Shown: piece after piece, positions 22,659 to 44,563 of the stretch | How the letters are laid out: each line of letters opens with the position of its first letter | Position numbering within the stretch: position 1 is the stretch's first letter | Source: Leptolyngbya sp. Heron Island J | GTDB taxonomy: Bacteria; Cyanobacteriota; Cyanobacteriia; Phormidesmidales; Phormidesmidaceae | Assembly: GCF_000482245.1 (NCBI RefSeq) | Contig: NZ_AWNH01000024.1 | Location: 1 to 64,000, forward strand | Direction of reading: 5' to 3' | DNA length: 64,000 nucleotides | The notes under the pieces: model-generated | The model's database searches: none | What the model saw: only the letters and a program-made list of their open reading frames with translations | Told to the model about the DNA's origin: nothing | Translations under genes and position numbers: made by a program

Positions 22659-22723
22659 AACCTGAATGGTCTAATTTTATTTTTTAATGGTCATCACAGT
22701 ATCGATGAAGCGGGGGGAGCGAT

Positions 22724-24661: not shown

Positions 24662-24680
24662 TATCTAGGGAGAAATAACA

Positions 24681-27600
24681 ATGGGAGACGACACAAATGT
24701 TGCTAAGACCATCACTCATAATAGTAGAAACCCAGATATTTTGAAGAACGAGGCCGATATTTTTGAAGTATCTCAGGTCACTCCCCATTCTGACGATACA
24801 AAGTATTTAAAGATACCGTATAAAGGTCTGAATCCTTATACTGAAAACGACACTAGCATCTTTTTTGGCAGAGAGAGTGATATCCAGGAAATGGTCAACA
24901 ACCTGTTGGCCTGGCGTTTAACCATTCTATATGGCAAGAGTGGCGTAGGTAAAAGCTCAATTTTGCGGGCAGGGGTCACCCATATCTTACATGAAGAAGC
25001 TCAACAAAATAGAATCGACTATGATGGGATACCTAAGCTGGCGGTGGTAGTGTTTCCATCTCTGGAAAGAGACTTCTCCTGGAGGGATGATCCCCTAGCA
25101 AGTTTAATTCAGCAAATTGAAGTGACGATTGCCCAAAGAGGTTGGGATATTCAACCTCCTGAATCTGGATTATCCTTCATTGAGACATTAAGTTCTTGGA
25201 CAGATGCCTTAGGTGGGGAAGATTATGATGGAGAGCTTTACTTGATCCTCGACCAGTTTGAAGAATATTTTCTATATCACGCCAACGAAAAAGCAGATGG
25301 TACCTTCTATACTGAGTTTCCGCGCGCTGTTAATTGTCCTAGCTTACGAGTTAATTTTTTGATTTCGACTCGTAAGGATTCACTCGCAGCTCTTGATCGC
25401 TTTAAGTCACTGATCCCTGGATTATTAGAACATCGCCTGGAAATGGGCCATTTAAGGGGTGAAGCTGCAGAAGAGGCAATTACAAAGCCAATTGACTACT
25501 ACAACAGGCAATACAACACAAATATTTCTATTGAGCAATCATTGGTGAATGCGATTTTAGAGGAGGTGCAAGTTGGTAAAGTCATTCTTGGAGATAGTGG
25601 TCTGGGGGGAGTTGAGGCGAAGCATAAAGTACTTTCGGAAATGCAGATTGAAACTCCTTATCTGCAACTAGTAATGGAACGGTTATGGAAGGAGGAACAT
25701 GATAGAGAGTCTAATCTTCTACGACTAGAAACCTTCAAAGCTCTGGGGCAGGCCGATCAGATCGTGAAAGACCACCTGAATCATCAGATGGAACTGTTGA
25801 CAGAGGAGGAAAGACAAATTGCTGCCAGCATCTTTCAGTATCTGGTAACTTTGTCAGGGATGAAGTGTGCTTGCTCGGTGTTTGAGCTAGCAACCCATAC
25901 TAGATGCAACAGTATTCGACTTAAACAGTTGTTAGAGAAATTGGCCAGCGGAAAACAGCGGATTGTACGACCTGAGGGAAAAGCCAAGTCCGATCAACCC
26001 GATACCCAGCGCTACGAAATTTTTCATGATGCCTTGGCTAACCCTATTCTTGACTGGCGCAGACGCTATCTAGAGCAACAAAAGCTTGAGGTTGAAAAAG
26101 CGAAATTAGAGGAAAAGCGACGTCAAGAAACTGAAAAACTACAAATTGAAGTTGAGCAACAACGGCTTGAGTCTGACAAGCAGCGGCTTGAAATTCAAAG
26201 GCAACAAACAAAGAGTGAGAAAAAAATAGGAAGAGCTTTAATCACAACTGGTTTATTTGCATTAGGAATAGTTGGCTGGCTGTGCTCTTGGCTATTTATC
26301 AAAGATCGAGAGATACAGATAAATCGATTGAATCTTCAAGGAAGTAAAGCATTGGTTGAGTTTCAGTTAAATACTGCTAGTGAACTGGAATCTGTAAAGT
26401 CGGCTATGCGATTAGGTCATATTGCGCAAGAAAAGAATTTAGCTGAAGAAGAGGTGCCAAGTTTAAGTTTGTCTTTGCAACAAATCCTTCACCGCATCCG
26501 TGCAAAAAATCAATTGACTTTTACTCAAGGTATTCCGACTAGACGTGGAATTGCTCAGAGTGCCAATGGGCAGTGGATAGCCCTGGGTACGATTGATGGC
26601 ATGGTCTATCGAAGAAATTTAAATATACTTGGATGGTCAAAATTCAAGGCTACCGACAACTCAGTAAGCAATCTTGATATAAGTGATGATGGACAGAGAA
26701 TAGCTACAGCTACGACCGAGGGCGAAGTCAAAGTATGGGATGCCACTACGGGCCAGTTAATTAGAGACTTTACTCCCGACGCTGTATATGAGCACTTGAG
26801 GATCCGTCTCAGTCCAGATGGGCAGAAACTGGTAGTGATAAGTTCTAGCATTCCACATTTGTGGGAGATCGACAGCGGTGAACGTTTAGTTATACCTTTT
26901 CACAACTCCAGAGACATCATTCAACAAATTATTTTTAGCCCGGATGGACAAAAAATGGCTATGGTAAGCTCTAATGTAGAGAAAATATTCTCAATTAGTC
27001 TATTAGACCTGAGAGGCAACGTAATCAATTCCTGGCAAGTACCGTCTGATATTTTGAACCTTCGCTTTAGTCCTGACAGTGAACAGTTAGTCTCTTCTTC
27101 TGGTAACAGCGCCACTTTATGGAATTTACAGGGAGACGAGTTGACAACTTTTCAAGGTCACTGGAGCTCTATTAGGGCTTTGGCTTTTAGCCCAGATGGA
27201 AAAGAACTTGCTACAGGAGCAGAAGATGGCTTTGTGCGAGTCTGGGATCTCAACGGTCAGGAGAAATTTTCTCTAAAGGGTCATGACAGCTGGATTGCTG
27301 CTATTAGATTTGGTTCAGATATTCGAAATTTTACCACAATAACAAACTTAGGAACAATTAGGCTATGGGATGTTACATCAAAATCCTGTGATAGCGCAGA
27401 GAATTTGTGCACAACATTCATAAATACTTATAAATTTTCTGGGTTTAGATATCAGGCTGAAGTCGTTTTTAGCCAAGATGGTCATATGGCTACTGTCTCT
27501 GGGAATGGGACAGCCTATTTGTGGCCTCCAAACCAAACCAAACCATCTAAACCCTTCATGGGTGGGGGTAAGAGAACTTTTCGCGTCAAGCCCAGGGTTT

Positions 27601-28415
27601 TTCTAAGCCCAGATGCTAAACGACTGGCAACGATAGCATCTGATGGCACAGCTCGTTTATGGTCTACTCAGAATGAAAATTCTGCAACACAGTTATTTAA
27701 AGGGCATTCTGGCGAAAAGGCTGTAGCCATAGCTCTAGGGATGGATCGCTCCCTACTAGTTACGGCTTCAGAGGATGGTATCTTTCGTCTTAAAGATTTT
27801 CGACGTAACATAATTGCTGAATTTTCAGGTTACAAAGGAAGATCTTCCCAAGCTATTTTCAGCCCAAATGGAAAATTAATTGCAACAGTATCTGGAAAAA
27901 ATAATATTCTCCAAATATGGAACTTGCAGGGACAGCTCTTGAATGAGTTTGATGGTTACTCAGGAGCGGTATCAGCTATTCGCTTTAGTCCAGATAGTCG
28001 TAAGTTGGCTACAGCATTTCTGGATGGCAATGTTTATTTAAGAAATGTGCGTAGAAAAGAACGATCTCTGAAACCGCTGTTCTCAACTGGTAGTTCTATT
28101 CTTAATATTCGCTTTAGTGCAGATGGCCAAAAACTGGCTACTGCTTCCTTCGATGGTAAGGCTCAAATTCGGAGCATCCAGGGAGAAAAGCTGATAGAAT
28201 TTCAGACTCTCAATGGTCTTTGGGATGTTAATTTTACCTCCAATGGGCAACGGTTAGCCGCTGTTGGCTGGCGAGAAAAAGGGTATCTGTGGCAGATAGA
28301 AGATCTGAATCAATTGCTTCAGAAAGGCTGTGACTGGATGCGGGACTATCTTGAAACCCACCCTGATGAGGCCAAAGAGTTCGTTTTTTGTAATGACTTA
28401 TCTGTCTCTCGCTGA
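24681..28415 (+). CDS. nSTAND NTPase with coiled coil, membrane helix and WD40 repeats
   Basis: 1244 residues. Order: short N-terminus; nSTAND1-type NTPase beginning YKGLNPYTENDTSIFFGRE, with Walker A GKSGVGKSS (K91) and Walker B LILDQFEE (D191); winged-helix/helical region to about 450 ending RYEIFHDALANPILDWRRRYLE; coiled coil (about 455-515, LEEKRRQETEKLQIEVEQQ); one membrane helix (about 518-540); then about a dozen WD40 repeats (about 620-1215) with repeated FSPDGQKLAT-type strands and RVWDL-type ends. STAND proteins assemble on ligand recognition and switch on effectors; here the propeller would be the sensor. Third gene of the 22098-28415 operon. Confidence 0.93.
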   Translation: MGDDTNVAKTITHNSRNPDILKNEADIFEVSQVTPHSDDTKYLKIPYKGLNPYTENDTSIFFGRESDIQEMVNNLLAWRLTILYGKSGVGKSSILRAGVTHILHEEAQQNRIDYDGIPKLAVVVFPSLERDFSWRDDPLASLIQQIEVTIAQRGWDIQPPESGLSFIETLSSWTDALGGEDYDGELYLILDQFEEYFLYHANEKADGTFYTEFPRAVNCPSLRVNFLISTRKDSLAALDRFKSLIPGLLEHRLEMGHLRGEAAEEAITKPIDYYNRQYNTNISIEQSLVNAILEEVQVGKVILGDSGLGGVEAKHKVLSEMQIETPYLQLVMERLWKEEHDRESNLLRLETFKALGQADQIVKDHLNHQMELLTEEERQIAASIFQYLVTLSGMKCACSVFELATHTRCNSIRLKQLLEKLASGKQRIVRPEGKAKSDQPDTQRYEIFHDALANPILDWRRRYLEQQKLEVEKAKLEEKRRQETEKLQIEVEQQRLESDKQRLEIQRQQTKSEKKIGRALITTGLFALGIVGWLCSWLFIKDREIQINRLNLQGSKALVEFQLNTASELESVKSAMRLGHIAQEKNLAEEEVPSLSLSLQQILHRIRAKNQLTFTQGIPTRRGIAQSANGQWIALGTIDGMVYRRNLNILGWSKFKATDNSVSNLDISDDGQRIATATTEGEVKVWDATTGQLIRDFTPDAVYEHLRIRLSPDGQKLVVISSSIPHLWEIDSGERLVIPFHNSRDIIQQIIFSPDGQKMAMVSSNVEKIFSISLLDLRGNVINSWQVPSDILNLRFSPDSEQLVSSSGNSATLWNLQGDELTTFQGHWSSIRALAFSPDGKELATGAEDGFVRVWDLNGQEKFSLKGHDSWIAAIRFGSDIRNFTTITNLGTIRLWDVTSKSCDSAENLCTTFINTYKFSGFRYQAEVVFSQDGHMATVSGNGTAYLWPPNQTKPSKPFMGGGKRTFRVKPRVFLSPDAKRLATIASDGTARLWSTQNENSATQLFKGHSGEKAVAIALGMDRSLLVTASEDGIFRLKDFRRNIIAEFSGYKGRSSQAIFSPNGKLIATVSGKNNILQIWNLQGQLLNEFDGYSGAVSAIRFSPDSRKLATAFLDGNVYLRNVRRKERSLKPLFSTGSSILNIRFSADGQKLATASFDGKAQIRSIQGEKLIEFQTLNGLWDVNFTSNGQRLAAVGWREKGYLWQIEDLNQLLQKGCDWMRDYLETHPDEAKEFVFCNDLSVSR

Positions 28416-31154: not shown

Positions 31155-32981
31155 ATGTTTCAGCTCTCTGTATCCCCAAAGCTTACTACCCTGATTGATC
31201 TGTTACGCTATCGGGCTGATCGCCAACCCGATCAGCTGGCCTATCAGTTTCTTGAGGATGGTAAGACTGAAGCCGCTTGCTACACCTATCAACAACTTGA
31301 TCAACAGGCTCGGGCAATTGCCGCCTGTCTCCAACAGGCTAAGGGAGAGCGAGCATTGTTGCTCTATCCCCAGGGAGTTGAGGTCGTTGCCGCTTTCTGT
31401 GGCTGTCTATATGCTGGGGTGATTGCTATTCCGGTTCCTCCTCCAGACGCTGGGCGTATGAAGCGAGCACTGCCTCGTCTACTGGAGATTGTGAAGGATG
31501 CTGATGCTAGTTTAGTGTTGAGTACTCAACGCATCATCGATCTTCTGAAGAATAATAAGGATGTAGTATCTCCTCAGTTTGAACAGATGACCTGGTTCAA
31601 CACCGAGCAGGTAGATTTACATTTGGCGGAGCAATGGCAAGACCCCCAGGTAGATCAGCAGGCGTTGGCTTATCTACAGTACACCTCAGGCTCGACATCG
31701 GTGCCTAAAGGGGTAATGCTGAGCCACAAAAACTTAATGCATCATTCTGCCTATTTGCAACGGGCCTGTGGGTATACGCCCGATGGGGCAACAGTTACCT
31801 GGATGCCCTATTTCCATGACTATGGCTTGGTGGAAGGATTAATCCAACCACTGTATACTGGGGTGCCTTGCTATGTGATGTCGCCCCTGGCGTTTGTAAA
31901 GCGACCTCAGCGTTGGCTGGAAGCTATTTCTAAATATCGGGCTACCCACAGCCAGGCTCCTAACTTTGCCTATGACCAGTGTGTCCGTCGGGTCAAGCCC
32001 ATCAAGCGCGAAGGGTTAGATCTGAGCTGTTGGAAAGCAGCAGGTAATGCGGCAGAACCCATTAACCCTCGCGTTATGCGCGAGTTTTTGGATGCCTATG
32101 CACCCCATGGTTTTCGGTGGACAACATTTGCCCCAGCCTACGGTTTAGCAGAGGCCACTCTCCTGGTCTCTAGTAAACGGGTGGGGACAGAGCCGATGAT
32201 TTTGTCGCTGAATGCCACCGCTTTGGAGAAGGGGGTTGTCGCTCCTGTCCAGGAAGATGCTCTCCAGCGAGATATTGTCAGTTGCGGCCAATTAGTCTGT
32301 GAGACTGAGGTTGTCATTGCTAATCCAGATACGTTAACTCGATGTGATCATGACGAAGTTGGAGAGATCTGGGTGGCTGATCCGGGTGTTGCTGGTGGAT
32401 ATTGGCAACGAGCTGATGCCACCGAAGAAACATTTGGAGCAAGGCTCAAGGATACGCCTCAGGTTGGCCCCTACCTGCGCACAGGAGATTTAGGCTTTAT
32501 ACGAGCAGGGGAGCTTTATATCACCGGACGTATTAAGGATCTGATTATTATTCGCGGTACCAACCATTATCCTCAAGATATTGAGTGGACGGTGCAGCAG
32601 CTGCATCCGGCTCTTCGTCCGAACTATGGCGCTGCCTTTTCCATCATTGATGAAGGAGAAGAAAGGCTAGTAGTAGTGCAAGAAGTGGAGCGTCAGTATC
32701 AGTTAACCCTGGCAGCGGACGACATTTTGGCAGATATTCGGCAGGCTATTGCCGAAGCCCATGAATTACAGGTGAGTGCGATCGCACTAGTCAAATCCGG
32801 CAATGTTCTCAAGACGTCCAGTGGCAAAATCCAACGTCGGGCCTGCCGCGATAGCTTTTTAGTCGGTACCCTAGAGGTCATTGCCGACTGGAGTGAGCAT
32901 CCTCAGCTGACGGCCAGGATGAGGAGCTTTAAAAATGATGTTGACGCCCTGGAACACCAGGTACAAATGGCATCTTCTTGA
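31155..32981 (+). CDS. fatty acyl-AMP ligase (FAAL)
   Basis: 608 residues from the ATG at 31155 (an in-frame TTG lies 7 codons upstream). Adenylate-forming fold: YLQYTSGSTSVPKGVMLSH (ATP loop), MPYFHDYGLVEGLIQPLY (FAAL-type block), PAYGLAEATLLVS, YLRTGDLGFIRAGELYITGR and IIIRGTNHYPQDIEWTV. The presence of the last two and of the DYGLVEG block point to FAAL rather than CoA ligase. FAALs activate a free fatty acid as acyl-AMP and load it on an acyl carrier protein. An ACP, an acyl-CoA dehydrogenase and an MBOAT acyltransferase follow, so this enzyme likely starts the relay. Confidence 0.93.
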   Translation: MFQLSVSPKLTTLIDLLRYRADRQPDQLAYQFLEDGKTEAACYTYQQLDQQARAIAACLQQAKGERALLLYPQGVEVVAAFCGCLYAGVIAIPVPPPDAGRMKRALPRLLEIVKDADASLVLSTQRIIDLLKNNKDVVSPQFEQMTWFNTEQVDLHLAEQWQDPQVDQQALAYLQYTSGSTSVPKGVMLSHKNLMHHSAYLQRACGYTPDGATVTWMPYFHDYGLVEGLIQPLYTGVPCYVMSPLAFVKRPQRWLEAISKYRATHSQAPNFAYDQCVRRVKPIKREGLDLSCWKAAGNAAEPINPRVMREFLDAYAPHGFRWTTFAPAYGLAEATLLVSSKRVGTEPMILSLNATALEKGVVAPVQEDALQRDIVSCGQLVCETEVVIANPDTLTRCDHDEVGEIWVADPGVAGGYWQRADATEETFGARLKDTPQVGPYLRTGDLGFIRAGELYITGRIKDLIIIRGTNHYPQDIEWTVQQLHPALRPNYGAAFSIIDEGEERLVVVQEVERQYQLTLAADDILADIRQAIAEAHELQVSAIALVKSGNVLKTSSGKIQRRACRDSFLVGTLEVIADWSEHPQLTARMRSFKNDVDALEHQVQMASS

Positions 32982-33072
32982 TGGTTGTTGGTGCTACAGA
33001 ATCTAGTTGTCCTGTTTTATGACGATAAGGCCTTATTGCCTAGATTAAGTTCTCAATCCTAGTAACCGTTCT

Positions 33073-34887
33073 ATGAAATCTCTTAAGCAATACTGGGTGG
33101 CGGAAGCCCTGGAGCGCTCCCTAGGCAGCCCTTTTACTCCAGAAAACCCTCTTTCTTTTCAGCACACGGCTACCCTTGATGAACAAGAGGTCTTCCCTGA
33201 GGCTGAAATTAAGGGGCTCTATGACTGGGGATTACAACACTATTACATTCCCACTGACTGCGGTGGCAAATTTACCTCTTTTGAGGAGTTTGTTGCATTT
33301 GTGCGGGTGCTCTCTCGTCGCGATCTGAATACTGCGATCGCATTTACCACCATGTTTTGGTCTTTCCTCACCTGGATGGCAGGTACGGAAACACAAAAAC
33401 AACAGCTGGCTCGGTTTATGAAAGATGATTACGGCACCATGTGCCTGGCCTATTCTGAACGGGAGCACGGCAGTGATCTAGTCGGTGGCAGTTTGGTGGG
33501 AGAAAAAGTGCCTGGTGGCTATCGCCTCACTGGTGAGAAATGGCCCATTAACCGGGCGACTCGCTCGGGAATCACCTTTGTGTTGGCCCGTACTGACAAA
33601 GCAGGCGGTAATCGAGGGCTGTCCCTGTTTATGCTAGACAAACGGGCACTTGATCCCACTAGTTTTGGCAACAACCCTAAAATCAAAACCCACGGTATTC
33701 GTGGAGCCGACATGAGCGGTATTTATTTTGAAGACTGTTTTGTCCCTGATGAAATGCTTTTAGGCAAAGAGGGGCAAGGATTAGAGCTAGCCCTAAAAGG
33801 ATTTCAGATTACTCGGGCCTTGTGTGCAGCATTTTCCCAGGGCTCTGCCGATACTTGTCTGCGCACCACCCTCAATTTTGCCCTGAATCGTCAGCTCTAC
33901 GGCAAGACCGTCTGGGATATGCCTCACCCCCGCCGTGTGTTGGTGAATGGATTCCTTGATATCCTGGCCTGTGACTGTGTGAATATTGCGGCGGCGCGAG
34001 GATTTCACGTTGCTCCCCGGCAGTTTAGCGTCTGGTCTGCGGTGGACAAGTATTTTGTGCCTGTCACCCTAGAAAAAATGCAGCAGGATATTTCAGTTGT
34101 ACTGGGTGCAAGGTTCTATATGCGCGATGAGCACGACTATGGTGTGTTCCAAAAAATGTTGCGAGACAGTTCTATTATCAGTGTGTTTGATGGCAGCTCG
34201 GTCGTTAATCTCCATTCCTTAATCCTGCAGCGACGGCAGCTAGCCAAAGCTCGCAGTCGTCGTAAACCCAAGGATTTAGTCGCTCTCCAGGCACGTTTAC
34301 GCAACAGCTTTGATCTAACGACAGAGCTACCCGCCTTCGCTCCCAGCCAGCTCGATCTGATCGCTCGGGGAACCGATGATGTGTCCCAGGGATTAGAATC
34401 CGCCCTGGCTACCCTAGAGGCTCTTGGCAAACCTCTAGATATCGATGCCAATGTCCTGGACTGTCTCAAGCAGCAGTACCAACAATTTCTGCAAGTCTTA
34501 GATGAACAGGATGAAGCCATTGCGGATGGTGCTTTTGAACATGGTCACGATCAGTCCTTTGAATCCTTTGAAGAGGCCAAGGGATACTGTTATATTCATG
34601 CTGCAGCGGCTTGTCTGCACATGTGGCTGCACAATCGCAGCCAGCTGGGAGATTTCTTTGCTCAAGGGAAATGGCTGGTGCTGTGCGCAGATCGATTGTT
34701 AGCCCAGCTCACCCCTGAGCAGCCAGCCATACCGTTGGCTTACTACGAAACCGTAGCGGAGGAACTGTTACGGCTCCATAGAGCTGACAAAATGTTGTCA
34801 ATTGTGCCATTTCAATTGGCATCTAGGACAAATTCTGTTAGCGCTTCTGCTCCGATCAAATCCCCTGCTCCAATTTTGCAGGTTTAG
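33073..34887 (+). CDS. acyl-CoA dehydrogenase-like flavoenzyme acting in FAAL/ACP cluster
   Basis: 604 residues. Acyl-CoA dehydrogenase core in the first 410: LAYSEREHGSDLVGGSL (flavin-binding loop), GEKWPINRATRSGITFVLAR, KTHGIRGADMSGIYFEDCFVP, GEGQG-like GKEGQGLELALKG and FDGSSVVNLHSLILQRR. The catalytic base usually a Glu in this last motif (YEGT) is an Asp here (D373). The C-terminal 190 residues are a helical extension. In FAAL-ACP clusters such enzymes desaturate the acyl chain on the carrier protein at the alpha-beta position; applied here, this is inference. No start-site ambiguity is apparent. Confidence 0.88.
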   Translation: MKSLKQYWVAEALERSLGSPFTPENPLSFQHTATLDEQEVFPEAEIKGLYDWGLQHYYIPTDCGGKFTSFEEFVAFVRVLSRRDLNTAIAFTTMFWSFLTWMAGTETQKQQLARFMKDDYGTMCLAYSEREHGSDLVGGSLVGEKVPGGYRLTGEKWPINRATRSGITFVLARTDKAGGNRGLSLFMLDKRALDPTSFGNNPKIKTHGIRGADMSGIYFEDCFVPDEMLLGKEGQGLELALKGFQITRALCAAFSQGSADTCLRTTLNFALNRQLYGKTVWDMPHPRRVLVNGFLDILACDCVNIAAARGFHVAPRQFSVWSAVDKYFVPVTLEKMQQDISVVLGARFYMRDEHDYGVFQKMLRDSSIISVFDGSSVVNLHSLILQRRQLAKARSRRKPKDLVALQARLRNSFDLTTELPAFAPSQLDLIARGTDDVSQGLESALATLEALGKPLDIDANVLDCLKQQYQQFLQVLDEQDEAIADGAFEHGHDQSFESFEEAKGYCYIHAAAACLHMWLHNRSQLGDFFAQGKWLVLCADRLLAQLTPEQPAIPLAYYETVAEELLRLHRADKMLSIVPFQLASRTNSVSASAPIKSPAPILQV

Positions 34888-34981
34888 ATCTGAAAGGTTG
34901 TCTCATTTTCAGACTAGTTAAAGCTGTTGCCGTTTAGTTAGCTCTCGTTAACAGTTTTGCATCTTACATTAACTAAAACCT

Positions 34982-35281
34982 ATGACATTTTCTACTACTC
35001 AAAACCCAACGGTTACCTCTCCGGTTGAAGCTATCCAGACCTGGCTGGTTAAGCAGCTGGCTGATGTACTTTCCTTAGATCCAACGACGGTAGACGTCAC
35101 TCAACCTCTGACTCGCTATGGGTTAGATTCCATCGATGCTGTGACCCTAGTTGCCGATTTAGAGGACTGGCTTGACCTGGAGCTACCGTCTACATTGTTT
35201 TGGGACTATCCCACTATTGCCAAAGCCTCTACCTACTTAGTCAATGAATTTGAGGTCTCGATAGATCCCAAGGATCTGTAG
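34982..35281 (+). CDS. acyl carrier protein
   Basis: 99 residues, with the phosphopantetheine attachment Ser at position 50 in RYGLDSIDAVTLVADLE, and the helix-2/3 pattern LFWDYPTIAKAS typical of PKS/NRPS-type carriers. It has a 15-residue threonine-rich N-terminal extension. Located between the dehydrogenase and the MBOAT gene, it presumably carries the fatty acyl chain from the FAAL to the MBOAT. No condensation or ketosynthase domain is present in the locus, so chain extension on it seems unlikely. Confidence 0.95.
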   Translation: MTFSTTQNPTVTSPVEAIQTWLVKQLADVLSLDPTTVDVTQPLTRYGLDSIDAVTLVADLEDWLDLELPSTLFWDYPTIAKASTYLVNEFEVSIDPKDL

Positions 35282-35308
35282 GGCAAATGCTACTAAGGAG
35301 ACACCGTT

Positions 35309-36769
35309 TTGAATTTCTCTGAGTTTTCCTTTTGGTGGATTTTGCTGCTGTTCTGTGTCCCGTTTTTTACGGTGCGCTTGATTGGACAGGTTTTGAACCT
35401 TTGGCGTGGCGTTTTTGATACGATGGGGATTGCGGCCCTGTCACTACTGCTGTTTTTTAATGCCAGTGCCACCAGTTTTGTTGTCTTTTTGATCCAAATC
35501 CTGTTTAACTATTGGATGGTGCGGTGGATGATCACCCGCCCACCCCAACAGGAACGACTCATTGCCACGTTGCTGATTATTTTTGACGTGGGTGTGCTGG
35601 TTTATTTTAAGTATTTAACCTTTTTTGTTGAGGATATTTTAGGATTGGCGGTTGTGGTGCCGGGAAATTGGCGATCGCAATTTCCACTGCCGGTCTTTGG
35701 AGGAATTCCGCCTGGGGTTTCGTTTTACACCTTTCAGATGGTGGCGTTTGTGGTGGATTCCCTCAAGGCCCGCCGTAAAAAGCCGATTGAGTTCATGGAC
35801 TATGTGAACTTTGTTGCCTTTTTCCCTCAAATTGTGGCGGGTCCCATTGAGCGACGGTCGGCCCTATTACCTCAAATTTCTAGTTTTAGATTTAAGTTCA
35901 CAGCGGATAACTGGGACTGGGGGCTGCGGTGGTTGTCCCTGGGCTTGTTTATGAAGTTTGTCCTCGCCGATAACATTGCGCCCTACATTGATCTGCAAGA
36001 GGCGGGGAATGCTTGGCTGGTTTGGTTTTATGCCTTCTTGTTTACGCTGCGGATTTATTTTGATTTTGCCGGCTATAGCTTTATGGCTGTGGGTATTGCC
36101 CGGGTGCTAGGGGTGCGTTTAACTGTAAATTTTCTAGCCCCCTATACATCTCAGAGCATCAATGAGTTTTGGCGACGTTGGCATGTTTCCCTAAGCACCT
36201 GGTTTCGTGACTATGTGTTTTTACCGCTCATGGGATCGCGTAAAGCCTGGGCTCCTGCTTTTCTGTTTGCTACGTTTACCCTCTCGGGATTCTGGCATGG
36301 AGCATCTTGGAACTTTATTCTCTGGGGCGCTTATCACGGTGCTCTCCTGTTACTGCTGCGCTATGCTGGTCGACCCTTTCAGAGAGTTGTTAACAAGTAT
36401 GTCAAGCGACCTCAAATTATGTCGTGGGCATTAACCTTTGGCTCAGTGGTGCTGGGCTGTTTGTTCTTTATGGAGTTGAATACAGCTCGGCTCGTCACTA
36501 AGTTGACCACACTGATCACACCCTGGGCCTATTCGTTAGCTAATCTCGGCAGTGCATTTAGTCAGTTTAGCCTGAATGAAGCTATGGCGCTGGGGCTGAT
36601 TTTGTTGTTAGCTGCAGGATTTTTACTAGTAGAGCATATTGCAGTTTGGCAAGAACGGTCTTTAGAATATGAGCTTTTTTTGGTCCCCTGGGTTTCTAAA
36701 GCCTTATTAGTGCTAACAATTCTCTTTGCTGCCAATATTCCATCTGAATTTATTTATTTTGAGTTTTAG
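35309..36769 (+). CDS. MBOAT-family acyltransferase (AlgI/DltB type)
   Basis: 486 residues from a TTG start supported by AAGGAG at proper spacing. About eleven membrane helices. Family motifs: IPPGVSFYTFQMVAFVVDSL, FFPQIVAGPIERRS, FWRRWHVSLSTWFRDYVFLPLMG (H292) and SGFWHGASWNFILWGAYHG (H330, the expected catalytic histidine). DltB and AlgI move D-alanyl or acetyl groups across the membrane to outer-face acceptors. Here, an ACP-bound fatty acid is the likely donor. It lies 27 bases after the ACP gene and 34 bases before the SGNH-like gene. Confidence 0.95.
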   Translation: MNFSEFSFWWILLLFCVPFFTVRLIGQVLNLWRGVFDTMGIAALSLLLFFNASATSFVVFLIQILFNYWMVRWMITRPPQQERLIATLLIIFDVGVLVYFKYLTFFVEDILGLAVVVPGNWRSQFPLPVFGGIPPGVSFYTFQMVAFVVDSLKARRKKPIEFMDYVNFVAFFPQIVAGPIERRSALLPQISSFRFKFTADNWDWGLRWLSLGLFMKFVLADNIAPYIDLQEAGNAWLVWFYAFLFTLRIYFDFAGYSFMAVGIARVLGVRLTVNFLAPYTSQSINEFWRRWHVSLSTWFRDYVFLPLMGSRKAWAPAFLFATFTLSGFWHGASWNFILWGAYHGALLLLLRYAGRPFQRVVNKYVKRPQIMSWALTFGSVVLGCLFFMELNTARLVTKLTTLITPWAYSLANLGSAFSQFSLNEAMALGLILLLAAGFLLVEHIAVWQERSLEYELFLVPWVSKALLVLTILFAANIPSEFIYFEF

Positions 36770-36803
36770 AGCCTAGGGATTATACAAGAGGGGAGTCAGT
36801 CAG

Positions 36804-37730
36804 ATGCAAGAGTCACTCAAGTTATTACGCTGGGCTGCGATCGCAAGTTTAGCTTGGGGCGCTGGCAGCCTGTATAACGTTTACGGCGGTGGTGAAACCA
36901 GCTGGCTGCGGTCTATGTATCAGCGCAAAATCGCCCTGGCGCAAACCATCGAATCTCCTAAGCTGATTGTCACCGGGGGGTCAGGAGCCCACTACACGAT
37001 CAATGCTGAGGTGCTGGAGGCAGATCTGGGGCTACCGGTGATCAATATGGGCATTGATGGTCCAGTGGGGTTGAACCTGATCTTGCCCAGTGTTTTACCT
37101 CAGGTAGAACCGGGTGACACTGTTATGTTAATTCCGGAATATCTGTTGTTAAACCATGAAAATGGTTTAGGTGAACGCTCTGGGGCCTTTGCCCTGGCAA
37201 CGGGGCAGCCGTTGACCGGTAATATTCCACCCAAACAGTTGGCACAAAGTGTGTTGATGTTGGGGGTGCCTTCACTGCGGGCAGTGGTGAAGTCTTCTAT
37301 AGATTTGGCCACCTTGGGACGAGTGACGGGTTACTACGATGATCCCCTCACCGAGCAAGGAGATCCAACCATCACCAAGGTACGCACTGGGGAATGGTGG
37401 CAGATGAAAATCAAACAGCCTGCCACACCCTATGCCCTTGACCGTATTGCTGAGTTTCGTCAGGAGGTGGAGGCCAAAGGAGCTACGTTGTTGCTAGCGA
37501 TGCCCTGGGTCTATGCTGATGCCGACGATTTAGAAACACAGAACAATGTTGAGGCCACAGCGACAGCATTATCGGAAATTGCTCCTTTGATATACGACCC
37601 TGAGACTTTCAATATTCAGTCTGACTCTACTCTGTTCGCGGATACCCATTATCATCTGATGCCTGAGGCGCGCAGGTTGCGATCTCAAACCCTAGCCCAA
37701 CAACTTCAACCGTTACTAGCTAACCCATAG
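36804..37730 (+). CDS. SGNH-like protein (DltD/AlgJ-AlgX analogue)
   Basis: 308 residues with GAGGGGAG upstream of the ATG. N-terminal membrane anchor/signal (LLRWAAIASLAWGAGSLY), then an SGNH-type fold: nucleophile loop IVTGGSGAHYTIN (Ser60), INMGIDGPVG (block II), and C-terminal DTHYH (D280, H282), matching the Asp-x-His signature of alginate acetyltransferases. In the Dlt and alginate systems an SGNH protein receives or passes the acyl group after the MBOAT step. The same role is inferred here from gene order and motifs. Confidence 0.82.
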   Translation: MQESLKLLRWAAIASLAWGAGSLYNVYGGGETSWLRSMYQRKIALAQTIESPKLIVTGGSGAHYTINAEVLEADLGLPVINMGIDGPVGLNLILPSVLPQVEPGDTVMLIPEYLLLNHENGLGERSGAFALATGQPLTGNIPPKQLAQSVLMLGVPSLRAVVKSSIDLATLGRVTGYYDDPLTEQGDPTITKVRTGEWWQMKIKQPATPYALDRIAEFRQEVEAKGATLLLAMPWVYADADDLETQNNVEATATALSEIAPLIYDPETFNIQSDSTLFADTHYHLMPEARRLRSQTLAQQLQPLLANP

Positions 37731-37829
37731 GTCTAGCTAATAGAGCCAGCAAAATTGAACTTATGAATCCACCTCCAAACTCCCTTACCCCTTAAACAGT
37801 CTCTTTGTCCTCCTTGCCCCCATTGTTCC

Positions 37830-39677
37830 ATGGCCGACACTGTTCCCCGCCCCGGATTTCTAGAAAAGCGCTATGGCCTAGATTTAAGGTCTTTGGCATT
37901 GTTACGCATGGGTCTGGCTTTAGTTATCCTGGCAGATCTGTTGACTCGTATGGGTGATTTAGTTGCCCACTATAGCGATGCGGGAGTGTTACCCAGGCAG
38001 GCAGCCGCCGAAATCTTACCCGATGGGTACTGGTCGCTTCACCTGATCAGTGGTCAAGCCTGGGTACAGGCCCTGATATTTCTGGTGGCGGTGATCTTGG
38101 CCTTGGCTCTGTTGGTGGGGTACAAAACCCGTTTAGCGACTATTGCCTCCTGGGCATTGATTGTCTCTCTCCATAATCGCAATCCAGCCCTGATCTTCGC
38201 GGCCGATGATGTTTTGCGGGCGGTCATGTTTTGGGCGATGTTTCTCCCAATGGGGGCCAAGTACTCCATTGACAGTGCTCTCAATACCGCTGCCCAAAGT
38301 CTACCAAAACGTTTCTTTGGGGCTGCTAGCGTCGCTTTTATGGTTCAGCAGTGTTACATATACATGTTCTCCGCCTTCTTCAAAACAACCAGTTCTACCT
38401 GGTGGCCTGAAGGCAGTGCAGTCTATTATTCCTTAAGCTTTGACCAATATGTCACCCCCCTAGGAGCATGGCTCTTAAATCTGGGTGCTTTGCTCCCCAT
38501 ATTGACCTTTTTTACCCTGGTGTTGGAGTGGATCGGTCCGCTGTTTATATTTGTGCCTATCCGTACCGATCTGTTTCGCAATATCGCTATCGTCACCTTT
38601 ATTTTGCTGCACCTGGGCTTTGGTTTTACCCTTAACCTTGGCATTTTTCCAGCTCTGAGTATTGTTACCTGGCTTGCGTTTATTCCCACCTCTACCTGGG
38701 AACGGTGGGCTAAGAGTTGTTATGGTCGGGAGCACCATGGCCTGGTGATTCACTATGATGCTGACTGTGGCTTCTGTAAAAAAGTCGTGCACCTGATCCG
38801 CACGTTTTTACTATTGCCAGATACTCCTCTCCGTACTACGCAGAGCGATCCTGATATCTTCGCGGCCATGGAGCGCCATAATTCCTGGGTAGTCGTTGAT
38901 TGGGAAGGCAAGTATCACTATAAGTTTGAAGCGATCGCCTATGTGTGTAGCGTATCCCCTGTCTTTTGGTTTTTAGCCCCGGTGCTGCGTTGGTTGCCCA
39001 TGATGAACGTGGGTACTCGGTTTTATGATGCGATCGCCAACAACCGCCGCAGGGCTGGTTTAGTCACACGTCCCTTTAAATTTAAGGCTTTTTCTGTCAG
39101 TGCTTCGTGGTTTGGCAACAGCCTGGCGGCAATTCTGCTAATTCTTACCTCTATCTGGAACTTCCGCAGCATTACCCATCACCATGCCTTTATTGATAAT
39201 CCCCATCCAGCAATTCGTGTTCTCCGGCGCGTGACCAATAGCCGTACCGTCAATCGGCTTCAAATTCCAATACAAGCTGCACGACTAGATCAGTCCTGGA
39301 GTATCTTTTCACCCAGTCCTCCCCGTGATGATGGCTGGTATTCTGTAGTAGGCACTTTGGCAGATGGTCATACCGTGAACTTACTGCAGCCCAATCAGCC
39401 TATATCTGCAGATAAACCCACCCTGGCTCAACGACAGGCAATCTACAAAAATCTCCAGTGGCGCACCTATTTTATTAATCTCAACCGAGCGCTAGGCAAA
39501 CAACTCTATCCTTACTATGGAAAGTATGTTTGCCACAGCTGGAACCACAACTACTCAAGCAATCAGCGTCTCAAAAGCTTTAATGTATCTTTTGTAGATG
39601 AGCGCACCTTGCCTCCTGGAGAAAGCCAAACGATGGCAGCAACCCAACCCTGGAGCCAGTCTTGTAACCCTAATTGA
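37830..39677 (+). CDS. HTTM-domain membrane protein fused to DCC1-type thiol redox domain
   Basis: 615 residues. The first about 290 contain the HTTM domain (related to vitamin K-dependent gamma-carboxylase membrane regions): LLRMGLALVILADLLTR, FAADDVLRAVMFWAMFLPMG, FMVQQCYIYMFSAFFKT and HLGFGFTLNLGIFPALSIVTWLAFIP. A DUF393/DCC1 domain follows (about 308-420), with YDADCGFCKKVVHLIRTFLLL providing the DxDCxFC redox pair. The C-terminal 180 residues include one more membrane helix and an SWSIFSPSPPRDDGW motif. HTTM-DCC proteins are common but largely uncharacterised. Separated by about 100 bases from the SGNH-like gene; may or may not belong to the acyl relay. Confidence 0.85.
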   Translation: MADTVPRPGFLEKRYGLDLRSLALLRMGLALVILADLLTRMGDLVAHYSDAGVLPRQAAAEILPDGYWSLHLISGQAWVQALIFLVAVILALALLVGYKTRLATIASWALIVSLHNRNPALIFAADDVLRAVMFWAMFLPMGAKYSIDSALNTAAQSLPKRFFGAASVAFMVQQCYIYMFSAFFKTTSSTWWPEGSAVYYSLSFDQYVTPLGAWLLNLGALLPILTFFTLVLEWIGPLFIFVPIRTDLFRNIAIVTFILLHLGFGFTLNLGIFPALSIVTWLAFIPTSTWERWAKSCYGREHHGLVIHYDADCGFCKKVVHLIRTFLLLPDTPLRTTQSDPDIFAAMERHNSWVVVDWEGKYHYKFEAIAYVCSVSPVFWFLAPVLRWLPMMNVGTRFYDAIANNRRRAGLVTRPFKFKAFSVSASWFGNSLAAILLILTSIWNFRSITHHHAFIDNPHPAIRVLRRVTNSRTVNRLQIPIQAARLDQSWSIFSPSPPRDDGWYSVVGTLADGHTVNLLQPNQPISADKPTLAQRQAIYKNLQWRTYFINLNRALGKQLYPYYGKYVCHSWNHNYSSNQRLKSFNVSFVDERTLPPGESQTMAATQPWSQSCNPN

Positions 39678-39814
39678 GTTCACAACGATACTGATATTCA
39701 TCATCAATGAGTACGAGCTGTTGTCTGTATAAAATGGCAGAACCTTAAAGAGAGAGTTGCCTGCCTCTGTCCAATATCTGAATAGGCCAAAAATGCTACA
39801 GGTTATTGTCTGAC

Positions 39815-41383
39815 ATGAAGTTACTTATAAAGCTTATTTTAATTACATTTTTATGGCTTGCTGTCATAAATCCCGGCACATATATCGGCCTAGATACTGC
39901 GTTAAGGCTTCAAATGACCCATTCCTGGTGGCAAGGGCAGGAAGAAGTGCTTGTGTCTTCCGAAACGCAGCCTAAACGACGGGGAGACATCCGATTTGGC
40001 GTTCAAGGCAGAGATAACAAACGGTATATTGCCTATGATGTTGGGCAGTCTCTGCTGATGTTGCCTGGTGACTGGGTAGGGACGCAGTTAGGTCGTTTAT
40101 TTCCCTCCATTGGAGAAACTGTGTTTCGAAATTTAGCCGTTCAGTTTTTAGTGTTTATACCTTTGAATGTAGCAGCTATCATCGCTTGCTTTTGGCTACT
40201 CAGGTTATTTCAGTTTAAACAGCATGTAGCAGCTTTGTCGAGCATTGGCTGGTTACTAAGTTCGACGGTGCTTCACTATGCTCAAATTCCCCAGCAAAAT
40301 AATCAGATCCTGTTGTTTGTGACCATTGGATATGCATCTGCCCTAGCTGGTGTACGTTTTAATAAACTCTCCTATGTATTTTTAAGTGGCTTATCCTTGG
40401 GGCTCGCCATGCTCATTCGCACAACCAGCATTTTCCACGCTTTGACGGTCTTTTTGTTTTTAAGTGGCTGCGTTCTCTATCAAAAGCGACACCTACCCAA
40501 CCTGTTTAGATTCTCAGCGGTTTGGATCTTAGGACTGATTCCATTTACTCTTCTAGGCCGTTTTGTTGATTATCTGAGATATGGCAGTTTATGGGCAACG
40601 TCAAACAGTGAAATCTTAAAGCAGCTTGGAACAGATCCCATGTGGTCTGGCTTACCGCAACTTCCTGCAAATTATCCCTTTGTCAATCCGCCTTGGATCG
40701 GCATTCTGGATACATTATTCTCGCCAGCGAGAAGTATTTTTATATACGATCCGCTATTTTTACCCTGTCTGATACTGACCATTGTCATCTGGAAAAAGAT
40801 TGCTCCCTATGTCCAGCTGTACCTATTAACTGGGCTGCTAAATCTAGCGTTACACATATTGCTGACCAGTAAACTGGTGTGGACGGGTGGTACAGCCTGG
40901 GGAGCAAGATTTCATGTTACCTCTGTTCATTTGTTGTTAATACCCCTGTTGGCTCTACTTGTACAACTGCTTTTATCATCCAGGCAATTGAAAAGATACT
41001 TAATTCAGGGTGTGCTTGTAATCGCTATTATGACCCAGTTTGCTTCTGTGCTTATGCAACCCAACTTAGAAATATATCAAAAAAAAGTTGGTTTTCCCGG
41101 AACGCGCTTTGATTTTCGTTTGATGCAGCGAGTTGCGAATATTGCTTGTCTTGTAGATGACTCCATCTACAAGGGATGTATTGGGCAAAATCCTGAAAAG
41201 AGGCAATATGTAGACAATTTAGATCATATCTTTATGTCGCCCTTTGTTTTAAGCCACCAAGCGACAGATGATAATAACGTTGCTTTAAGCAAGCTATCGT
41301 CCATCGTTTTTGTACTTTGGCTACTAGCCCTCGTGACAGCTATTGGCCTCACATTTTGTTCTGGATGGCTATATGAGATTTAA
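39815..41383 (+). CDS. multi-spanning membrane protein, putative GT-C glycosyltransferase
   Basis: 522 residues from the ATG at 39815. Around eleven membrane helices. An extracytoplasmic first loop with LDTALRLQMTHSWWQGQEE fits the acidic-loop position of GT-C enzymes, and VWTGGTAWGARFHVTSVHLLLIPLLAL is the later conserved block, also similar to the GGKQWGARFYLILVPLLTL block in the protein at 29033-30667. Thus the two are related. It overlaps the next gene by 11 bases, so they are co-translated. Confidence 0.75.
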   Translation: MKLLIKLILITFLWLAVINPGTYIGLDTALRLQMTHSWWQGQEEVLVSSETQPKRRGDIRFGVQGRDNKRYIAYDVGQSLLMLPGDWVGTQLGRLFPSIGETVFRNLAVQFLVFIPLNVAAIIACFWLLRLFQFKQHVAALSSIGWLLSSTVLHYAQIPQQNNQILLFVTIGYASALAGVRFNKLSYVFLSGLSLGLAMLIRTTSIFHALTVFLFLSGCVLYQKRHLPNLFRFSAVWILGLIPFTLLGRFVDYLRYGSLWATSNSEILKQLGTDPMWSGLPQLPANYPFVNPPWIGILDTLFSPARSIFIYDPLFLPCLILTIVIWKKIAPYVQLYLLTGLLNLALHILLTSKLVWTGGTAWGARFHVTSVHLLLIPLLALLVQLLLSSRQLKRYLIQGVLVIAIMTQFASVLMQPNLEIYQKKVGFPGTRFDFRLMQRVANIACLVDDSIYKGCIGQNPEKRQYVDNLDHIFMSPFVLSHQATDDNNVALSKLSSIVFVLWLLALVTAIGLTFCSGWLYEI

Positions 41384-42998
41384 GCTGATATTGGGATACA
41401 TTTTTATACTTTTAGCAGTTGCAATTGGCTTATCAACACGGCTGTTTGCAGTATTTCAGTATGTGACATTTGATATTGGTCCTGATCCCGATCAAATCAG
41501 AGATGCATTTGCCGTCATAAAAATGTGGCAAGGCTCTTTTCCTACGCTCGGGCCTCAAAGTAGTATCGGTAGACATCATATTTTACCTCTGTACTATTAT
41601 CTTTTCTTTCCTTTTACTCTTTTAGGACCCGATCCAGTATTTCAAGCATTACCCAATGCACTATTTTCTTTTTTGTCGATCCCTCTTTTTATTTGCTTAT
41701 TACATCAGCTCTTAGAAAATATCAAAAACTCAACTAGAGTTTTTCTGAGTGGTTTAGGGGGATTGTGGTATAGCCTTCTTTTTGGAGATATTTTTATCAA
41801 CAATTTTCAATGGAATCCCAGCTCAATACCATTTTTTATTATGGTTCTAACCTTGCTTTATAAGCTGCAGATGCAAGGGAAGTTTTCTTTTTTGGTGCAA
41901 GCACTGCTATGGATCTTCTCCGGAGTTATTTTAGCTATTTTAGTTAGCTTGCACTCTTCAACACTATTTATAATGCCAGTTGTTGTTGCCATCACCTCTT
42001 CAGTATTTATATATAAAGTGATTAGGAGAAAACGAAACCTTTTACTGATCTCTTTGCCGATTATAAGCGTCCTGTCAGCTGGAATTATATTATTACCTTA
42101 TTGGATAGGCGAAATTGGACGAAACTTTCAAAATACAAAAGCAGTTTTAAAGACAGTACTTAATTCTAATCACAACTCAGGTGGCCACTTTTTGGTTGGT
42201 TTATATACTAAAATTAGCGGTTTTTTTCTTGGTTATCTCACGCTCAATCAACAAGCTTATTTTTGGAATTCCTCATTGTTTTACCTTGTGGTATCCATAG
42301 TATTTTTGTCTCTAGTCAGTTGGTGGGGGATTTTTAAATTTAAAGGGAATCGACCTATTTGGTTGATGTGGTGTTCTATATGGATAATTTACTTACTGGC
42401 CGCTGCAAATATCAATTCTATGGCAACGCCTCTGCACTACAGATTGCCCATCCTTTTTGCTCCTATTGTGCTGACACTCACCTCACTGGCATATCTGGAT
42501 TGTTCACCAAGTAAGAAGAGACTTTTTTCAATTGCTGTTGGTGTGCTGATTATAGGCTCAATGTTCGTTAATTCACTCCACGATTATCAATTTATACTCA
42601 GCAAATATGGCACAAACCGTTTGATGAGTACAAGTGATGTAACTCAAATACTAGCCCAGCTACCTGCTGGTTCGATTATTTGTGATCCTAGAATAAAGCG
42701 TAAAAGAGAGGTTAATAATCAGTACAATTATATTGATACATATATTACTCATAAGGGGATAACGGCTTTAGCTGATTGTCAAACAGATAGTTTTGTTATA
42801 CATCCTAAGAGGGTCCTGTTCATAGAGAATAATTTTCTCAATAGAGGTACTTATCAAGAAACTTATTTTGTCAGGTCTGTGCCCAAATCGCCAATAAATC
42901 TATTTCCCATATTCAAGGTTGTTGAAAATGAAGCCATGGAGAAACCACACAAGCTTTTCTTAGAAACGGATACAGCTTATGTCTATCGTTTAGATTAG
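41373..42998 (+). CDS. PMT/ArnT-like GT-C membrane glycosyltransferase
   Basis: 541 residues from the ATG at 41373 overlapping the previous stop. About eleven membrane helices and a C-terminal soluble tail. The first loop has FDIGPDPDQIRDAFAVIKMWQG, with acidic residues in the position that binds metal and lipid-linked sugar in PMT-type enzymes, then LGPQSSIGRHHILPLYYYLFFPF. AT-richer than its neighbours (long stretches of TTTT/ATAT codons), suggesting separate acquisition. The sugar and acceptor are unknown. Confidence 0.75.
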   Translation: MRFKLILGYIFILLAVAIGLSTRLFAVFQYVTFDIGPDPDQIRDAFAVIKMWQGSFPTLGPQSSIGRHHILPLYYYLFFPFTLLGPDPVFQALPNALFSFLSIPLFICLLHQLLENIKNSTRVFLSGLGGLWYSLLFGDIFINNFQWNPSSIPFFIMVLTLLYKLQMQGKFSFLVQALLWIFSGVILAILVSLHSSTLFIMPVVVAITSSVFIYKVIRRKRNLLLISLPIISVLSAGIILLPYWIGEIGRNFQNTKAVLKTVLNSNHNSGGHFLVGLYTKISGFFLGYLTLNQQAYFWNSSLFYLVVSIVFLSLVSWWGIFKFKGNRPIWLMWCSIWIIYLLAAANINSMATPLHYRLPILFAPIVLTLTSLAYLDCSPSKKRLFSIAVGVLIIGSMFVNSLHDYQFILSKYGTNRLMSTSDVTQILAQLPAGSIICDPRIKRKREVNNQYNYIDTYITHKGITALADCQTDSFVIHPKRVLFIENNFLNRGTYQETYFVRSVPKSPINLFPIFKVVENEAMEKPHKLFLETDTAYVYRLD

Positions 42999-43270: not shown

Positions 43271-44563
43271 ATGGATCACGTAACATCTACTACGGAAACT
43301 CATAGGATGCAGCAATCTTCTCTGGTAGCTGTTCCGGTAGGACCGCTGATCATTCCTGCGATATTAACACCAACCGTGTATCAAGGAGAGCCGGTGAGTT
43401 TTTCATTACTTACCTCTACTAAACCGCCATTATTATCGTTGGTAATTCCAACCTATAACGAAAGTAGAAATGTTAGAGCAATTGTTGAGCAGCTAACCAC
43501 TCTATTAGATCGCAAAATCCCTGGTAATTATGAGCTAATTTTAGTGGATGATGATAGCCCTGATGGCACCTGGGAAGTTGCTTCTGCTCTGAGCAAAGCC
43601 TGTCCGCAGCTGCGAGTCATGAGACGACAGCAAGAGAGAGGGCTATCGTCTGCTGTTATTCGAGGCTGGCAAGTTGCGCGGGGAGAAATCTTAGGCGTGA
43701 TTGATGGTGATTTGCAGCATCCGCCAGAAGTGCTGCTGGATATGCTATCTGCAGTGCGAAATGGAGCAGATTTAGCGGTTGCCAGCCGTCATGTGGGTGG
43801 GGGTGGTGTGAGTGACTGGAGTGTTGTTCGGCGCTTCCTATCGCGTGGGGCTCAGTTTCTAGGGTTGCTGATTTTACCCAATGTCGTGGGGCGAGTCACC
43901 GATCCCATGAGTGGCTATTTTATGGTGCAACGTTATGCAATCCAAAATCATTCTCTTAATCCTAAAGGCTACAAAATTCTTTTAGAAGTCATTGGTCGGG
44001 GACAGGTCAAGACTATTGCGGAAGTGGGGTATGTATTTCAAGAGCGGACAGCGGGTGAAAGCAAAGTCACCTGGAGACAGTATGTCGATTATCTCCATCA
44101 CTTAGTCCGGTTACGCTCACGGGGGCGAGTGGCTCGTTTACGTCAAAAATTTCCACTAAAACGTTTCCTCAGGTTCGGTATTGTTGGCTTAAGTGGTGTG
44201 TTTGTGGATATGGCGGTTTTATATTTGCTGCATACAACTTTGGGCTTAAACTTGACCCGTAGTAAGATTTTGGCAGCAGAAGTTGCTATTATTAATAATT
44301 TCATCTGGAATGATGCGTGGACATTTTCTGATGTTGTTCAAAAACAACAAGGGTGGGGAGCAAGGCTAAGACGGTTTTTGAAGTTCAATCTGGTTTGCCT
44401 ATCAGGGTTAGTCTTAAATGTGTTGGTTCTAAATGTCATCTACAATATTGTTTTTGGTCAACGCTATGCCTATCTGGCCAACCTGATTGCGATCGCACTG
44501 GTCACCCTATGGAACTTCTGGCTAAATTTAAAGCTCAGCTGGCGGGTTACCAAGGTAAAGTAG
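43271..44563 (+). CDS. polyprenyl-phosphate glycosyltransferase (GT2) fused to GtrA domain
   Basis: 430 residues. An N-terminal extension (about 55) is followed by a GT2 domain (about 56-285): LSLVIPTYNESRNVRAIVEQL, LILVDDDSPDGTWEVA, VIDGDLQHPPEVLLDML and DPMSGYFMVQR. A GtrA-type membrane domain with four helices ends the protein (about 298-425, KRFLRFGIVGLSGVFVDMAVLY). This architecture is that of dolichol-phosphate mannose synthase-like enzymes with flippase-type domains: it makes sugar-phosphate lipid and may help move it outward. It would supply donors to the GT-C proteins upstream. Sits just before the oppositely oriented ABC operon. Confidence 0.92.
   Translation: MDHVTSTTETHRMQQSSLVAVPVGPLIIPAILTPTVYQGEPVSFSLLTSTKPPLLSLVIPTYNESRNVRAIVEQLTTLLDRKIPGNYELILVDDDSPDGTWEVASALSKACPQLRVMRRQQERGLSSAVIRGWQVARGEILGVIDGDLQHPPEVLLDMLSAVRNGADLAVASRHVGGGGVSDWSVVRRFLSRGAQFLGLLILPNVVGRVTDPMSGYFMVQRYAIQNHSLNPKGYKILLEVIGRGQVKTIAEVGYVFQERTAGESKVTWRQYVDYLHHLVRLRSRGRVARLRQKFPLKRFLRFGIVGLSGVFVDMAVLYLLHTTLGLNLTRSKILAAEVAIINNFIWNDAWTFSDVVQKQQGWGARLRRFLKFNLVCLSGLVLNVLVLNVIYNIVFGQRYAYLANLIAIALVTLWNFWLNLKLSWRVTKVK

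Follow-up and report, generated by a model that had tools for sequence, protein, structure and literature searches.

A co-inherited cyanobacterial gene module with a possible role in relaying fatty acyl groups across the cytoplasmic membrane

A 64,000 nt stretch of the genome of Leptolyngbya sp. Heron Island J (contig NZ_AWNH01000024.1, positions 1 to 64,000; hereafter the window) contains, at positions 31155–39677, a single co-directional run of six genes on the + strand. These encode a fatty acyl-AMP ligase (FAAL), an acyl-CoA dehydrogenase (ACAD)-like enzyme, an acyl carrier protein (ACP), an MBOAT acyltransferase, an SGNH-like protein and an HTTM-DCC membrane protein. The six genes were found to be inherited together across the cyanobacteria, and the best reading of the set, in which we place reasonable confidence, is that of a trans-membrane fatty-acyl relay. 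A first-pass annotation, made from the nucleotide sequence of the window alone, had placed all of these genes on one strand with short gaps, and every gene it named was recovered at its position. Family searches bore out the FAAL, ACAD, ACP and MBOAT assignments; a tyrosine-shuttle motif at the C-terminus of the MBOAT, and Asp373 in the ACAD, had been overlooked.

Orthologues of the ACAD (at least 55% identity), the MBOAT (at least 63%), the SGNH protein (at least 47%) and the full-length HTTM-DCC protein (at least 47%) were sought in 386 genomes of the phylum. Close homologues of all four were present in exactly the same 18 genomes, which represent 12 genera and six families. All 18 also contained orthologues of the FAAL (at least 61%) and the ACP (at least 56%). 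In a sample of 339 genomes, FAALs with at least 61% identity were confined to those bearing the module; the next FAALs showed 54–55% identity. Decayed copies apart, the exceptions were an ACAD with 47% identity in genome G229 and a partial HTTM protein with 48% identity (residues 11–382) in G215. The probability of two unrelated sets of 18 out of 386 genomes coinciding is 2.6e-31, a figure that ignores phylogeny. The first-pass annotation had suggested conserved co-occurrence of FAAL, ACAD, ACP, MBOAT and SGNH genes as a check, and had considered that MBOAT and SGNH genes found mostly without FAAL and ACP would speak against its proposal. Co-inheritance proved to be strict, though with separate loci in some genomes, and an MBOAT or SGNH orthologue without the others was seen in none of the 386 genomes. 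The distribution of the set was patchy at the level of both family and genus: it was present in G191 and absent from G019, G024 and G042, which belong to the same genus, and was likewise present in G111 and absent from its congener G123. In one further genome, G385 (L047:6000-16200), the whole set, including a gene for an NDH-2-like oxidoreductase (see below), had jointly decayed to pseudogene fragments.

The order FAAL-ACAD-ACP-MBOAT-SGNH-HTTM, with or without the NDH-2-like gene between the last two, was common to G060, five genomes of family f7, Leptolyngbya, Phormidesmis and Xenococcaceae. The set was split in family f6 and in G111. In G095, the FAAL gene, an ACAD-ACP pair, an MBOAT-SGNH-NDH-2 group and the HTTM gene lay at four sites on one chromosome; linkage drag therefore cannot explain their co-occurrence. 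In most lineages the MBOAT gene directly follows the ACP gene; this holds also for G105, G143 and G111, in which other genes of the set had moved away.

The MBOAT ends in FIYFEF, which fits the FXYXXF acyl-shuttle hexapeptide. FIYF-x-F was kept in all 24 aligned homologues, and His292 and His330 were invariant (24 homologues). In PatA, the tyrosine of FXYXXF undergoes auto-acetylation, after which the acetyl group moves to the SGNH partner PatB, while Dlt systems have the motif on a microprotein of its own, DltX, and use a carrier protein as donor; MBOAT-SGNH pathways other than Dlt are said to have no carrier protein (PMC12148441). The module in the window combines a dedicated carrier protein with a fused shuttle motif. 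Its MBOAT scored 185.7 bits with the DltB model, below the equivalog cut-off of 375; over the full length of this model, three module MBOATs reached 176–186 bits versus 140–154 bits for four other MBOATs. A profile search of the PDB with the MBOAT returned only DltB entries at E values up to 0.1.

The SGNH-like protein produced no match in a Pfam search, and a sequence search for a solved homologue found none. Its AlphaFold model (mean pLDDT 89), however, showed an SGNH fold, which VIA-align matched to the best SGNH hydrolase with Z 13.5 over 186 residues, and to both DltD (6o93, 226 residues) and PatB (8tlb, 169 residues) with Z 11.3. Ser60, Asp280, His282 and His284 were invariant in 26 homologues. 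A hydrophobic, uncharged N-terminal segment was present in all 32 homologues inspected for it (best 17-residue hydropathy 1.1–1.9), and may serve as a membrane anchor. Among 26 SGNH homologues, a single one gave a match to AlgX (PF16822), at E 0.079, which we did not count as evidence.

On the donor side, the FAAL scored 417–548 bits with the NCBIfam FAAL models versus 159 bits with the best general CoA-ligase model shown, and 155.5 bits with the general amino-acid adenylation model (cut-off 317). Its best PDB matches were FAALs, such as FadD32 and FadD23. This enzyme would thus be expected to activate a fatty acid and load it onto the ACP. The ACAD has three ACAD Pfam domains followed by a C-terminal extension of about 200 amino acids. 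Alignment to MCAD-type structures showed the usual catalytic glutamate (E376 of MCAD) to be replaced by an invariant aspartate, Asp373; the sequence FDGS was invariant in the 25–26 homologues aligned. An aspartate at the position of the MCAD glutamate was found in all the module ACADs and in the first ACAD of the FAAL-ACAD-ACAD-ACP clusters for non-ribosomal peptide synthetases (NRPS) of Streptomyces and Burkholderia, which also retains FDGS. The predicted role of the ACAD is desaturation of the acyl chain on the ACP; related gene clusters suggest, by analogy, that the chain becomes alpha,beta-unsaturated. In the ACP, the GLDSID motif, part of the longer PLTRYGLDSID, was invariant in 24 homologues. 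At the C-terminus, many module ACPs (L032, L034-L037, L058-L061, L068, L069) are extended by a linker and a short tail rich in Trp and Gly, e.g. KGWGGLWNKISGS; the ACPs of the Leptolyngbya group, including that of the window, have no such extension.

The HTTM-DCC protein had been recorded in the first-pass annotation merely as the next gene. Its position was correct, but this description was incomplete: by co-occurrence, the HTTM-DCC protein is an obligate member of the module. A DCC1-like domain was recognized in all 19 homologues examined and the HTTM domain (PF05090) in two of them; the CGFC motif was invariant. An NDH-2-like flavoprotein, a pyridine nucleotide-disulphide oxidoreductase, also belongs to the module, as does a phosphopantetheinyl transferase (PPTase) in some lineages. 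In several lineages the NDH-2-like gene overlaps, by 1 or 4 bp, the end of the MBOAT or SGNH gene; in two further places it forms a pair with the HTTM gene. An Sfp-type PPTase gene lies divergent from the FAAL gene in three lineages (G060, Vasconcelosia and Phormidesmis). The CGFC motif and the NDH-2-like partner suggest that the HTTM-DCC protein may take part in a redox step. A profile search of the PDB with the HTTM protein found nothing, its AlphaFold model was poor (pLDDT 62), and a Foldseek search with that model returned no significant match; vitamin-K-carboxylase-like chemistry for HTTM is speculation. The locus in the window has neither a PPTase gene nor an NDH-2-like gene. In another contig of the same genome, C115 (G000:C115:192100-196000; L081:7124-12140), a PPTase gene, an intact NDH-2-like gene, a broken HTTM gene and a CemA gene were found together. 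The NDH-2-like gene of this contig grouped with the Phormidesmis/Leptolyngbya module copies (support 100/100), and the site appears to be a remnant of a second module location.

In the proposed relay, the FAAL would adenylate a free fatty acid and load it onto the dedicated ACP, made holo by a PPTase. Oxidation of the chain on the ACP by the ACAD would follow, with a 2,3- or 3,4-unsaturated acyl-ACP as the most likely product. At the cytoplasmic face, the MBOAT would then accept the acyl group from this carrier on its own Tyr483, within FIYFEF. The hexapeptide would pass the group on to the membrane-anchored SGNH protein, at Ser60, and this protein would esterify an acceptor on the outer side of the cytoplasmic membrane. 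The HTTM-DCC protein and the NDH-2-like flavoprotein (adjacent in most other lineages) may supply a required redox or maturation step. The first-pass annotation had envisaged a Dlt/alginate-like relay for these genes. The fused FXYXXF motif, the SGNH fold with its triad and the placing of the ACP gene beside the MBOAT gene in most lineages agree with that proposal; that a fatty acyl group is transferred is what we infer. The MBOAT reads as the acceptor of the fatty acyl group from the ACP because it is the only conserved acyltransferase and no other consumer recurs near the module, and this assignment by elimination is the main argument. Across the compared lineages, no NRPS (C-domain), polyketide synthase (PKS; ketosynthase), alpha-oxoamine synthase (AONS) or other known acyl-ACP consumer recurred at a distance of up to 6 kb from the module. 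A more specific proposal, which is tentative and rather doubtful, is that the module is obligate and comprises seven or more genes, with a carrier-fed, fused-shuttle MBOAT and an HTTM-DCC/NDH-2-like membrane redox unit acting on the exported acyl chain or on the acceptor, and that it performs an undescribed desaturated envelope acylation.

Several observations weigh against the relay. Co-inheritance indicates a shared pathway, but is not proof that the MBOAT accepts acyl-ACP. The MBOAT and SGNH genes lie apart from FAAL, ACAD and ACP in several lineages, and eight of the 18 module genomes belong to one genus, a relatedness that the chance estimate leaves out of account. The replacement of Glu by Asp leaves the exact activity of the ACAD open. 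Finally, MBOATs with the same motif act elsewhere on acetyl groups, and the module MBOAT could instead use acetyl-CoA to modify the product of the FAAL, ACAD and ACP. This last point leads to the main rival explanation, which we consider unlikely, in which the module has two functions: the FAAL, ACAD and ACP would serve, together with an unlinked enzyme, to build a lipid, which the MBOAT and SGNH proteins would separately O-acetylate from acetyl-CoA, as PatAB and AlgIJ do. The characterised MBOAT-SGNH systems with a fused hexapeptide named in PMC12148441 all use acyl-CoA, and the two halves can be physically separated, with MBOAT-SGNH apart from ACAD-ACP in genus g31, and SGNH-HTTM apart from ACAD-ACP-MBOAT in G105 and G143. 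The ACP gene nevertheless adjoins the MBOAT gene in most lineages, G105, G143 and G111 included; of the MBOATs tested, those of the module come closest to DltB, and no other acyl-ACP consumer is conserved near the module.

It is improbable that the FAAL, ACAD and ACP provide a starter for a lipopeptide or polyketide made by an NRPS or PKS encoded elsewhere in the genome, with the MBOAT, SGNH and HTTM proteins tailoring or exporting the product. Although relatives of the ACAD (33–36% identity) do occur in Streptomyces and Burkholderia NRPS clusters, as in that for rotihibin (PMC8552735), an NRPS or PKS gene beside the module recurred in no lineage. In addition, the other FAALs of the module genomes are separate paralogues (45–52% identity), several of them in very long frames of NRPS/PKS size. 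An acyl-ester hydrolase or thioesterase role for the SGNH protein, freeing a desaturated fatty acid or a small-molecule ester with no envelope acylation at all, is very improbable. The SGNH protein is invariably paired with a shuttle-motif MBOAT and has the Asp-x-His arrangement of envelope acyltransferases. The best matches of its model were SGNH esterases and TesA-type thioesterases (Z 12–13.5, slightly higher than the 11.3 for DltD and PatB), but the longest structural alignment in the list (226 residues) was that with DltD.

The features of the run and of the genes that follow it are collected in Table 1. The intergenic gaps within the run are, in order, 91, 94, 27, 34 and 99 bp. A scan for promoters and terminators gave the same counts as in shuffled sequence.

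Table 1. Coordinates of the module genes and of the glycosyltransferase genes downstream of them in the window
Feature	Position	Strand	Basis or remark
FAAL (fatty acyl-AMP ligase)	31155..32981	+	PF00501 + PF23024; FAAL NCBIfam models
ACAD-like enzyme, 604 aa	33073..34887	+	PF02770, PF00441, PF02771
Dedicated ACP, Ser50 of GLDSID	34982..35281	+	PF00550
MBOAT acyltransferase, His292 + His330	35309..36769	+	PF03062; TTG start after AAGGAG
FIYFEF codons (FXYXXF motif), MBOAT C-terminus, Tyr483	36749..36766	+	Homologue alignment
SGNH-fold acyltransferase-like protein, N-terminal anchor helix	36804..37730	+	AlphaFold model + invariant residues
HTTM-DCC membrane protein, CGFC thiol motif	37830..39677	+	DCC1-like/HTTM (PF05090) matches among homologues
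Two GT-C-like membrane glycosyltransferases	39806..42998	+	First: LA_3751-family subthreshold match; second: no family match
GT2-GtrA glycosyltransferase	43271..44563	+	PF00535, PF04138

The first-pass annotation had suggested that the acceptor might be a glycan made by the neighbouring GT-C and GT2-GtrA proteins. These genes turned out not to be constant members of the module. The GT-C gene at 29033 had no homologue in five of 15 module genomes and in most of the others stood at a distance from the module, that at 41343 had no homologue in six of the 15, and a close copy of the GT2-GtrA gene was seen beside the module only in near relatives. The glycosyltransferase genes differ between lineages, and the idea that those of the window make a glycan acceptor was discarded for the module in general. 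There are, even so, GT-C genes next to the module in the group to which the window belongs and in G143, G237, G111 and G235, while FkbM methyltransferase, CemA and other genes adjoin it in a few lineages. A glycan is a possible acceptor, and the GT-C-like pair and the GT2-GtrA gene of the window are possible accessory genes. In two unrelated lineages (L076:11131-16228 and L058:18127-21748), genes for a second MBOAT and DUF1574-like SGNH proteins were found directly after the HTTM gene. Elsewhere in the window, positions 22098–28415 encode a small unknown protein, a PNP-phosphorylase/SIR2-like fusion (645 aa) and an nSTAND-WD40 protein (1244 aa); this operon looks like those of phage-defence type, with weak PADLOC matches.

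Searches of the literature found no open-access paper on MBOAT, FAAL and cyanobacteria together, and none on MBOAT, SGNH and acyl carrier protein together, though a description elsewhere is possible. In a 2024 survey of Microcystis metabolites, the only mention of an ACAD domain concerns a paracyclophane-like cluster, and a review of FAALs (PMC11837247) describes the cyanobacterial enzymes mainly as NRPS/PKS-type starters, with no mention of MBOATs. Until now, protein-to-protein hand-over of this known type has been demonstrated with acetate and D-alanine, not with fatty acids. If the relay operates as proposed, the Tyr-shuttle MBOAT-SGNH mechanism would also serve carrier-delivered fatty acyl groups, uniting a Dlt mode (carrier-fed, with a separate shuttle) and a Pat/Alg mode (CoA-fed, with a fused shuttle) that were kept separate in the 2025 PatAB paper (PMC12148441). 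It would also represent a use of FAALs different from the NRPS/PKS-starter use described in PMC11837247, assign a function to the HTTM-DCC proteins, make a pathway open to direct testing out of an orphan gene set, and predict a so far undescribed acylated envelope component in phylogenetically scattered cyanobacteria.

Several known systems resemble parts of the module. The FAAL-ACAD-ACP lipo-initiation sets of tambjamine (TamA/TamT), rotihibin (RthH-K) and acinetin 505 share with it a FAAL, an ACAD-family enzyme and a stand-alone ACP, but there the acyl-ACP goes to an NRPS or to a reductase/transaminase, whereas the partner in the module is an MBOAT-SGNH pair. The ACAD relatives with 33–36% identity mentioned above correspond to the first ACAD of FAAL-ACAD-ACAD-ACP-NRPS clusters in Streptomyces and Burkholderia glumae. 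The rotihibin cluster has this same FAAL-ACAD-ACAD-ACP set, with desaturation ascribed to the ACADs as a prediction (PMC8552735); the tambjamine TamA/TamT (PMC5939613) and acinetin (PMC5376624) clusters follow the same logic, the desaturation step being predicted in these too. Outside the module, the cyanobacterial enzyme most closely related to the ACAD (47% identity) is encoded in G229 (L067:6101-16110, G229:C275), in a FAAL-FAAL-ACAD-ACP-AONS-SDR cluster. This cluster shares with the module the FAALs, the ACP and the same long ACAD family, but lacks orthologues of the module MBOAT, SGNH and HTTM proteins, and its acyl-ACP presumably goes to the AONS, as in sphingoid-base synthesis; it is possibly a cyanobacterial pathway for sphingoid-type lipids. 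By analogy among these systems, the FAAL-ACAD-ACP triad is a device for making acyl-ACP, the consumer of which varies from one system to another.

With Dlt (DltA-DltC-DltB-DltX-DltD) the module shares the combination of an adenylating enzyme, a carrier protein, an MBOAT and an SGNH-fold protein, and DltB is the solved structure nearest to its MBOAT. The module differs in that a FAAL replaces the amino-acid ligase DltA (its score with the general amino-acid adenylation model is below the cut-off), in that the MBOAT fails the DltB equivalog cut-off, and in the addition of ACAD, HTTM-DCC and NDH-2-like proteins. No separate DltX gene was found between the six genes, where the gaps of 27–99 bp are too small for one; the motif is fused to the MBOAT. 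With three defining features of Dlt lacking, the module is not a member of that system. With PatA-PatB and AlgI-AlgJ/X it shares an MBOAT with conserved His and a C-terminal FXYXXF, and an adjacent SGNH protein with Ser and Asp-x-His; PatA, however, uses acetyl-CoA with no carrier protein (PMC12148441), while the pair in the module is co-inherited with a dedicated FAAL, ACAD and ACP. The module is thus probably a novel variant of MBOAT-SGNH acylation, which resembles Dlt in its donor side and PatAB in its transfer side and is preceded by a starter set of lipopeptide type.

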